Of a stretch of 64,000 nt of DNA, positions 55,970 through 59,826 are shown in pieces (position 1 is the stretch's first letter; each line of letters starts with the position of its first letter). Under the pieces are notes generated by a model. It did no database searches, was not told the DNA's origin, and saw nothing but the letters and a program-made list of their open reading frames with translations. Origin of the DNA: an uncultured Desulfovibrionaceae bacterium (GTDB lineage Bacteria; Desulfobacterota; Desulfovibrionia; Desulfovibrionales; Desulfovibrionaceae); contig CATJOY010000043.1 in the NCBI GenBank assembly GCA_949741925.1, forward strand, positions 1 to 64,000, in the 5' to 3' direction. A program made the translations under genes and the position numbers.

Positions 55970-57370
55970 ATGAGTAGGCAAAGAACATGGGGCGGGCGTT
56001 TCAAAGAAGGCCCCGCAGCGCTGGTGCAGCGCTATACGGAATCAATCTCCTTTGACCGGGCCCTGTACGCGCAGGATATCGCAGGCTCCAAAGCCCATGC
56101 GGCCATGCTGGCCAAAGTGGGCGTGCTGACGGCCGCAGAAGCCGCCGCCATCGCCTCCGGATTGGACCGGGTTAAGGAAGAAATCGAAAGCGGCCACTTT
56201 GCCTGGAAGGTGGAATATGAAGATGTTCATATGAATATTGAAAGCCGCTTGATTGAGCTGATTGGGGATACGGGCAAAAAACTGCATACCGGCCGCAGCC
56301 GTAATGACCAGGTTGCTCTGGATTTCCGGCTGTTTGTCTCCGACCGTCTGGCAATCTGGCGCTCCGCTCTCAGGGATCTTGTGGCCTCCCTTACCGAACA
56401 AGCCGAAAAAAACAAGGAACTGCTCCTGCCGGGCTGCACCCATCTTCAGCCGGCGCAGCCGGTAGCTCTGGCCCAACACCTGCTGGCCTATGCCTGGATG
56501 TTCAAACGAGATCATGAGCGCATGGCTGATGCCGACAAGAGAGCCAGAATCTGCCCCCTTGGCGCGGCGGCCCTGGCAGGCACGACCTATCCCCTGGATC
56601 CGGCATACACCGCCCGCGAACTGGGCATGTACGGCGTTTTCGATAACAGCATGGATGCCGTTTCTGATCGCGACTTCGTAGCCGAAGCCTTGTTCTGCGC
56701 CTCCCTGGCCATGGCTCACCTCTCCCGGCTCTGTGAAGATATTATCCTCTGGGCCAATCCCGGCTTCGGATTTATCCGCCTGCCGGATGCCTATTCCACA
56801 GGATCCAGCATTATGCCGCAAAAGAAAAATCCGGATGTGGCCGAACTGATGCGCGGCAAAACCGGGCGAGTTTACGGAGCCTTGGTCAGTATACTCACCC
56901 TGCTCAAAGGCCTGCCCATGACCTACAACCGGGATTTGCAGGAAGATAAGGAACCCTTCCTGAATGCGGACACAACTTTGACCCTTTCCGTGGAAGCCAT
57001 GTCCGGCATGATCCGCGAGCTGCTTTTTAATGGTGACAGGATGCGGGAGGCTCTCGCCCGCGGCTTCCTCAACGCCACGGAACTGGCGGACTATCTGGCC
57101 GCCAAAGGCATCCCCTTCCGCGAAGCACACCACACCACGGGCAGCGCCGTTGCCATGGCCGAAGAACGGGGAGTCTCCCTGGAGGATCTCTCCTTGCAAG
57201 AACTGCAAGGCATCAGTCCGCTCATCGAAGAGGATGTGTACACGGCCCTGAATCCGGCTACGGCAGTCGCCCGGCGCAATACCCACGGCGGTACCGGCCC
57301 CTCCCCTCTGGCTGCACAGTTTACCACCCTGCGGCAATGGCTCGAACACGAGCAACGCGAACCGCGGTAG
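55970..57370 (+). CDS. argH: Argininosuccinate lyase
   Basis: Releases arginine and fumarate. 466 residues of the fumarase/aspartase superfamily: WGGRFKEGP near 5, [17 protein letters not shown] near 103, the TxxxxxQPAQP-type [20 protein letters not shown] near 155 and signature [20 protein letters not shown] near 278 with the flexible catalytic Ser loop. Separated from argG by 199 nt that hold a terminator. Confidence 0.97.
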
Positions 57371-57477: not shown

Positions 57478-57625
57478 CCGTAAGGGGGCGGTTTCCCATA
57501 CATTTCGGCTATCCTGCCTCCTTTTCCTCCCGGCGGGGCCCGGCGGAAAAACGATCTCAATGTCTGCCAACAGGCTTTCGCCCGGCTTTTTGCGGCTTCC
57601 TTACCAGGGGGAAAAACCGGCTTTG
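57478..57625 (+). repeat. Dispersed intergenic repeat, copy C
   Basis: CCGTAAGGGGGCGGTTTCCC then ATACATTTCGGCT, GCCTCCTTTTCC, GGCGGAAAAACG and GCCCGGCTTTTTGCGG, in the same order as copies A, B and D. The A- and T-runs can pair. Confidence 0.65.
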
Positions 57626-57781
57626 AATGAACAAAATGCTTTGTTAAACAGCCCTGGCGGCCCTTACAAAACGATGGTATAAAAGGCCGGACAGAATTTA
57701 TGGCAAGCAACGTGTAACCTGCAATGTTCCGAGGCGTGGAGGATCTTTCTCCACCTCCCGGCTCGTGAGGGCGAGGAGTGT

Positions 57782-58834
57782 ATGGCTGAGATAATGCGCT
57801 TGGTGGATCTTTCCAAAACAGCGGGCTGAGCGGCTAAAATGGCTCCAGGGGCCCTGGAGCAGGTACTATCCGCCGTCCGGCATCCTCCGGACACCCGGAA
57901 ACGTCTCTTAGCGCCATTGGAAACCAACGAAGATGCGGCTATCGTGCGCCTGCCCGCGGGCATGGCGCTCGTTCAATCGCTGGACTTCCTGACGCCCATA
58001 GTCAATGATCCCTACATCTTCGGCCGCATCGCCGCGGCCAATGCCCTATCGGATATTTACGCCATGGGCGGCGTTCCCTGGAGCGCCATGAACATCGCCT
58101 GCTTTCCATGCTCGTTGCCGAAAGACCATCTCAGCGCCATACTCCAGGGCGGAGCGGACGCGGTGGCCGAGGCCGGAGCCATCATGGCCGGCGGGCACAC
58201 GGTGCAGGACGATGAACTCAAGTATGGCCTCTCCGTCACCGGCGTGGTGGAGCCCGGGAAATTCGCCCTTAACAGCGCTCTGACTGCCGGTGACCGGCTC
58301 ATTCTGACTAAACCGCTGGGCAGCGGCATCTTGGCCACTGCCGTGAAGGCCCGCTGGGAAGGACATGAAAACCATGAACGGGAAATAGCCCGTTGGGGAG
58401 CTCGGCTGAACGCCGTTCCTGGCGCACTGATCAGGGAATTCGGCCTGCGGGCGGCCACGGATATTACCGGCTTTGGTCTGGGCGGTCATCTCCTGGAGAT
58501 GGCCCGGGCCTCGAAAAAAGCCATTCGTCTGGAAAGTGCCGCCCTTCCGGCCATGCCCGGGGCGCTGGAGCTTGCATCTATGGGGCTGGTGCCCCAGGGG
58601 AGCCACGCCAACAGGGCCCATGCCGGCAACGCGGCACGGATAGGCGCAGGGGTTGCACGGGAGATGACGGATTTGCTCTTTGATGCCCAAACTTCGGGCG
58701 GGCTGGTCCTGGCTGTGCCTCCGGCTCTGCTTGAGCGCGCCGTGGAACGGTTGCAGGAACTCGGCGATCAGGCGTTTCTCATCGGTGAGGTTCTGCCCCT
58801 CCGGGAACATGACATTTTTCTTTACCTTGAATAA
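57782..58834 (+). CDS. selD: Selenide, water dikinase containing selenocysteine (in-frame UGA)
   Basis: SelD makes selenophosphate, the selenium donor for selenocysteine. Open reading after the stop codon begins only at 57839, but an in-frame ATG at 57782 with GAGGAG 3 nt upstream reads MAEIMRLVDLSKTAG, then UGA (57827-57829), then AAKMAPGALEQVL. The UGA falls exactly at the active-site Cys/Sec of SelD (GCxxK/GUxxK). With Sec the protein is 350 residues and has the full N-terminus; downstream motifs are ATP-binding TNEDAAIV near 49, the FGRIAAANALSDIYAMGG block near 80 and GGHTVQDDELKYGL near 139. A perfect hairpin 13 nt after the UGA could be the SECIS element. Confidence 0.92.
57842..57860 (+). 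promoter_or_regulatory. Candidate bacterial SECIS hairpin of selD
   Basis: GCTCCAGG/CCTGGAGC, 8-bp perfect stem with loop GGC, beginning 13 nt after the UGA at 57827-57829. Bacterial SECIS elements lie within the coding region immediately after the UGA at this distance. Confidence 0.65.
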
Positions 58835-58863: not shown

Positions 58864-59826
58864 ATGCACAGCGATACACAGCACAATCCGCACTGCTCCG
58901 AACACACTCATGACCATGAGCATTCTACCGGCCAGCCGGGCCATACCTACCCGCAGGGGCATGATCATGCCCCACGCCATGGTCATAACCACCACGAACA
59001 CTGTGGCCATAAGCACCATCACCACGGGCATCATGGCAAGGATGGTCATGCCCATGACCTGGAGGCGGTCGATTCCGGAACGCTTCTGGTCATCCGCCCC
59101 TTTACCGGTATGGCCGGGGATATCATGGCAGCCGGTCTGGCCGGTCTTCTCGGCGCTGACCAGCAGTTGCTGGATAGCCTTGTCGCTGCTATCGGCATAC
59201 CTGAACTTGCCCCCGGCTCGTTCGCCGTGGCGCCGCACATGGTCAATGAAGTATCCGGCCTGATCGGGAGGGTCAGCCTCCCCCATGAGCATGCTCACCG
59301 CACGTTTAAGGATATTCGAGCGATTATCCGGGCCTCAACCCTGGAAGATCCGGCCAAGGATCTGGCTGAGAAAGCCTTCCGCCTGATTGCCGAAGCCGAA
59401 GCCGCCGTGCACGGCAAAGATATCGACGAAGTGCGGTTTCATGAAGTCGGCGCGCTGGATAGTATTCTGGATATCTGCCTGGGGGCGGCGCTGTTCACGC
59501 ATCTTGCCCCCCAACGTTTCATCTGCGGGCCGCTGCCGCTGTGCGACGGGGTCATTCATTGCGCCCACGGGCAGATTCCCGCCCCGGCTCCGGCCGTGCT
59601 GCGTTTGCTCCACGGCGTTCCGGTACGTGGCATTCCCGGCGCCGGAGAAACCGTAACCCCAACGGGGCTGGCGCTGCTCAAGGCCTTTGGCGCAGAATTC
59701 GGCCCTTGGCCGGCCTTCACGCTGGAACGCGAATGCTTGGCTTACGGCAACAGAGTCTTTCCCGATACCCCTAACGGCGCAATCTTCGCCTTTGGTTCCC
59801 AACGCATTGCCATGCGGCGGCCATAG
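58864..59826 (+). CDS. LarC-like nickel-pincer cofactor protein with His-rich N-terminus, lacking the LarC2 part
   Basis: 320 residues. Residues 1-65 hold 24 histidines, a probable nickel or zinc store. Residues about 74-315 match the LarC1/DUF111 core: IRPFTGMAGDIMAAGLAGLL near 78, EVRFHEVGALDSILDICLGA near 188 and GAGETVTPTGLALLKAFGAEFG near 262. LarC inserts nickel into the pyridinium dithiocarboxylate cofactor of lactate racemase-type enzymes and normally has a C-terminal LarC2 domain, absent here in all frames. larB and larE are not adjacent. It lies 29 nt after selD. Confidence 0.85.
   Translation: MHSDTQHNPHCSEHTHDHEHSTGQPGHTYPQGHDHAPRHGHNHHEHCGHKHHHHGHHGKDGHAHDLEAVDSGTLLVIRPFTGMAGDIMAAGLAGLLGADQQLLDSLVAAIGIPELAPGSFAVAPHMVNEVSGLIGRVSLPHEHAHRTFKDIRAIIRASTLEDPAKDLAEKAFRLIAEAEAAVHGKDIDEVRFHEVGALDSILDICLGAALFTHLAPQRFICGPLPLCDGVIHCAHGQIPAPAPAVLRLLHGVPVRGIPGAGETVTPTGLALLKAFGAEFGPWPAFTLERECLAYGNRVFPDTPNGAIFAFGSQRIAMRRP

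Follow-up and report, generated by a model that had tools for sequence, protein, structure and literature searches.

The selD gene of this uncultured Desulfovibrionaceae bacterium raises the question of whether a TGA triplet close to its 5′ end terminates translation or is read as selenocysteine (Sec). The window, i.e., the whole stretch of 64,000 nucleotides that was analysed, contains the triplet within the following arrangement. We put at about 97% the probability that the gene is an ordinary Desulfovibrionaceae selD that contains Sec, with the UGA decoded via a SECIS hairpin.

55970-57370, + strand: argH, the upstream neighbour (TIGR00838, 604.2 bits; context)
57774-57778, + strand: Shine-Dalgarno-like AGGAG, 3 nt upstream of ATG 57782
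57782-58834, + strand: selD, selenide, water dikinase (selenophosphate synthetase), from ATG 57782 to the TAA stop at 58832-58834; 350 aa with a predicted Sec at residue 16
57827-57829, + strand: in-frame TGA, the UGA codon almost certainly read as Sec
57839-57841, + strand: the next ATG, the start under a stop-to-stop reading
57842-57860, + strand: bacterial SECIS hairpin with a perfect 8-bp stem (57842-57849/57853-57860) and the loop GGC (57850-57852)
58864-59826, + strand: the downstream neighbour, a LarC1-type nickel pincer cofactor protein (TIGR00299, 172.6 bits; context, not mechanism)

The read-through product of selD scored 342.8 bits against the NCBIfam model TIGR00476, well above the curated cut-off of 125, and was aligned with model positions 1 to 308 of 311, i.e., with the whole model. 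When the protein was taken from ATG 57839 onward, the score was 322.3 bits and the first model position was 16, which indicates that the model also matches the additional N-terminal residues. The stop-to-stop frame thus loses the N terminus of SelD, as an earlier annotation made from the letters of the DNA (the sequence-only reading) had recognized. The same reading had placed a ribosome site before ATG 57782; the AGGAG is present there, though its spacing is short, and the in-frame ATG 57794 could be an alternative start. A possible 6-bp hairpin (GTGGAG/CTCCAC) was seen upstream of the AGGAG at 57736-57754 in the 5′ untranslated region, and inspection by eye of eight relatives revealed no obvious common element in the 150 nt that precede the UGA. 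The LarC1-type protein encoded directly 3′ of selD has a long His-rich N-terminal stretch.

The product of selD is homologous to the SelD structure chain 3u0o over query residues 5 to 341 (E = 2.3e-63), and the UGA is aligned with the Cys at chain position 17, where the protein described here would have Sec. We take 3u0o to be the SelD of E. coli and its Cys17 to be the active-site (catalytic) residue. The UGA would thus stand at the N-terminal catalytic position, which SelD proteins fill with Cys or Sec, and its reading as an active-site selenocysteine is almost certain. Homology and the published mechanism point to Sec insertion at this codon, and a catalytic role of residue 16 is predicted on the same grounds.

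A search for SelD in 199 genomes of Desulfovibrionaceae gave a match in 176; the family assignment is borne out by a 400-base piece of one of the loci (L048, genome G195), which recurs without change in a record of Desulfovibrio piger ATCC 29098 (L093). Among the 150 match rows listed (counted by hand, with the window's own row included), 146 contain one in-frame TGA and 4 contain none. Seventy SelD loci were then taken, 30 in a first batch and 40 in a second that contained all four listed rows without an in-frame stop; 66 of the 70 carry TGA (Sec) and 4 carry TGC or TGT (Cys), and the Sec segments comprise 58 distinct sequences. The sequence pattern missed 9 of the 70 loci, three of which were regained in a second round, and the other six were read and added afterwards. 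Named loci from a separate search have TGA in 16 of 17 cases, eight of them titled Desulfovibrio, with L104 left unresolved; the single same-genus genome has a SelD protein that is 66% identical. As expected of a bacterial selenoprotein, the in-frame UGA is conserved and its homologues have Cys or Sec, in agreement with the earlier proposal that the UGA occupies the Cys/Sec site of SelD.

If translation started at ATG 57839, SelD would be made without its N-terminal loop, and the upstream TGA would be a plain stop in unrelated sequence. A frame of 331 aa does open at this position and scores well by itself against the selD model, but the residues upstream of it are matched by TIGR00476 and aligned with 3u0o, and the TGA is retained in nearly all of the listed relatives. 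Furthermore, the codon aligned with ATG 57839 in the 58 distinct Sec-SelD genes is ATG in only 5 (GTG in 3 and TTG in 2), while an in-frame start lies 8 to 30 codons upstream of the UGA in all 58; the downstream ATG is not the general start among relatives. Initiation at 57839 is thus very improbable, and this ATG appears most likely to be an ordinary Met codon within the Sec-containing SelD.

The perfect 8-bp hairpin noted by the sequence-only reading was recovered, starting 13 nt after the UGA, with 20 nt from the UGA to the loop and a folding energy of -14.7 kcal/mol; the exact stem sequence occurs once within the window. According to a figure legend in PMC13188914, the bacterial SECIS (bSECIS) model has a loop of 3 to 9 nt, a stem of 4 to 16 bp, a G in the first two loop positions, a distance of 16 to 37 nt from the UGA, and an MFE of at most -7.5, and the selD hairpin agrees with each of the rules given in that legend. 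On the other hand, its z-scores against shuffled sequences are only -0.87 to -1.58, and a stem of at least 8 bp follows 2.7% of the 1759 TGA triplets on both strands of the window when G-U pairs are permitted and the loop, spacing, and G rules are kept the same. The hairpin alone is accordingly weak evidence, within the range of chance. An Rfam search of 57600-58000 with all families gave three matches (E = 4.2 to 9.6), with no SECIS model among them.

Conservation of the hairpin is more informative. Over the 58 distinct Sec segments, the stem is paired in 94.4% of 464 cells, a value reached by 0 of 500 shuffles, and pairing falls to 22 to 55% when the partner strand is slid by one to three columns. 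The number of stem cells changed on both sides is 21 (shuffled mean, 8.3; reached by 0 of 500), and all 58 segments have a G at the first or second loop position. Four of the eight pairs are invariant, the covariation is mostly in the outermost pair, which is broken in 10 of the 58 sequences, and two pairs show changes on both sides, which is no excess over the shuffles (mean, 1.8; reached by 387 of 500). Since the stem is also part of the coding sequence for a conserved peptide, and since the sequences are related by descent, these shuffle counts, like the z-scores, are not to be read as probabilities.

Synonymous constraint is a stronger sign of selection on the RNA than covariation. With expectations taken from the codon use of each gene itself, the four highest constraints among 331 codon columns fall on the wobble bases of the stem-loop codons 4, 5, 6, and 9 after the UGA, and codon 8 is seventh; at one of the stem-loop wobble positions, for example, T is found in 55 of 58 sequences, where 9.7 are expected. 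The z-scores are inflated because the genes are related, and it is the ranking of the codon columns that counts. In keeping with homology and the published mechanism, SelB may bind this hairpin.

Cys forms of SelD were observed in four genomes of the family (G110, G008, G182, and G179; loci L044 to L047). Each of the eight stem pairs forms in one to four of these four genes, which are less regular than the Sec genes, and one of the four folds strongly at the hairpin site (-17.3 kcal/mol). A strong tRNA-Sec match and selA are present in three of the four genomes, which indicates that SelD need not contain Sec where the machinery is present; G008 is without a selA match, and its best tRNA-Sec score of 47.9 bits lies in the range of false hits. 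Because TGT or TGC becomes TGA by the change of one base, and because the four listed relatives without an in-frame stop carry TGT or TGC, the triplet in the window might be taken for a sequencing error or a point mutation of a Cys codon, making selD an artefact or a pseudogene. The listed rows with TGA, however, are each from a different genome and retain the hairpin together with the triplet; the presence of TGA in the relatives excludes a sequencing error, and this explanation is hardly credible beside a functional Sec codon.

The draft genome (2.79 Mb in 109 contigs, 98% complete) bears out the earlier expectation that this organism has a selenocysteine system. Profile matches to selA (587.5 bits; cut-off, 267.9) and selB (379.6 bits; cut-off, 242.25) were found together with a tRNA-Sec of 78.1 bits (cut-off, 47), which ARAGORN identified as SeC with the anticodon tca, so that selA, selB, and selC are all present, on contigs other than that of the window. 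In this genome the tRNA-Sec model gave 9 further rows that fall short of the cut-off, and in 14 control genomes it gave a match in all 14 and exceeded the cut-off in 5. The cut-off alone is thus not specific, and only matches of at least 74 bits were counted as strong. These findings also bear on whether TGA encodes a standard amino acid throughout the organism, for which we found no supporting point. No internal stop interrupts the selA and selB family matches, nor argH, larC1, or the remainder of selD; the genome has a tRNA-Sec with a UCA anticodon, and the three tRNAs of the window are Gly, Cys, and Gly. TGA is the terminator of 26 of the window's 64 ORFs, a count that is partly circular, the ORFs having been cut at TGA. 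General reassignment of TGA has a practically negligible probability, and decoding of the selD UGA as Sec is retained.

The sequence-only reading had further suggested that other selenoprotein genes may be misread, and two such genes were identified in a glycine reductase operon on contig C38 (G000:C38, L088 4764-12426). This operon encodes a PF09338 component, GrdB (PF07355), thioredoxin, GrdA (PF04723), two genes with PF19364/PF08545 and PF02504, and a thioredoxin-reductase-like protein (PF07992). The in-frame UGA of GrdA (L088 8150-8152) lies inside the PF04723 match, in the segment CFVUTAAGAM, and that of GrdB (L088 7250-7252) lies just beyond the end of the Pfam match, with read-through giving 435 aa; both proteins are truncated by stop-to-stop reading. 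The hairpin that follows the UGA could not be told apart from shuffles in either GrdA (z = 0.02) or GrdB (z = -0.72). Table 3 of PMC1794560 names both GrdA and GrdB as selenoproteins in Syntrophus and Desulfuromonas. The genome contains no match to FdhA (TIGR01553) or to NiFeSe hydrogenase (PF00374) at E values up to 0.001, a soft absence in a draft. No UGA form of HdrA emerged from a degenerate motif pattern, which hit two sites, both one mismatch away and with TGC rather than TGA. Among the other in-frame TGA candidates of the window, judged by eye, no further one appeared selenoprotein-like.

When 20 genomes of the family were scanned for tRNA-Sec, 14 gave a match of at least 74 bits: all 7 of the genomes with Sec-SelD, 3 of the 4 with Cys-SelD, and 4 of the 7 without a SelD match. 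Scores of at most 48 bits were obtained for G008 (Cys), for G006, G055, and G077 (without a SelD match), and for G035 and G063 (with weak SelD matches). The genomes G047, G010, G145, and G175 contain selA above the cut-off (L114 to L117) and a strong tRNA-Sec. No SelD exceeded the family-model cut-off in these four genomes, which are rated 99 to 100% complete. Gaps in the drafts are a possible reason, though G047 consists of only 4 contigs; five further ORFs near its selA and tRNA-Sec gave no match to selB or selD at E values up to 1e-20. The occurrence of selA and tRNA-Sec without a detected SelD would, if true, carry more weight than the Sec-SelD itself.

The Sec-containing type of SelD is not new, as had already been remarked, and Haemophilus is an example of it in Pasteurellales. 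The UGA of the Pasteurellales selD is at the position homologous to that described here, and PMC4561486 presents it as a conversion of Cys to Sec. In contrast, Sec is the common state in the family studied here and Cys is the exception (4 of the 150 listed rows). PMC1794560, which counts 38 Sec-SelDs, includes SelD in its Table 3 as a selenoprotein of both Desulfovibrio vulgaris and D. desulfuricans; these two species belong to the same bacterial family, and the likeness of their SelD to the present one is by that listing. A record of Desulfovibrio piger (L093) has the same TGA and hairpin as the selD of the window. The Sec-SelD reported here is correct but expected, being usual in this family of sulfate-reducing bacteria.

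In the mechanism that we propose, SelB with Sec-tRNA(Sec) and GTP would bind the hairpin that lies on the selD mRNA 13 to 31 nt past the UGA, and this codon, the 16th, would be read as selenocysteine and not as a stop. The Sec would sit in the N-terminal loop of SelD, at the position of the catalytic Cys in other SelDs, and the enzyme would convert selenide and ATP to selenophosphate. SelA would use selenophosphate to form Sec-tRNA(Sec), which would serve at least GrdA and GrdB in addition to SelD.

The result corrects the gene model of selD, which a plain reading cuts off at the active site. It also identifies the organism as Sec-decoding, and GrdA and GrdB are accordingly to be read through as well. 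It is a speculative and rather unlikely extension that the Sec trait in this lineage is kept mainly by SelD and glycine reductase (GrdA and GrdB), with the UGA of selD acting as a selenium-sensing positive loop. The positive loop itself follows from any Sec-SelD, because without selenophosphate the selD message would stop after 15 codons; its action as a switch is putative, and selenium use could thereby be bistable.
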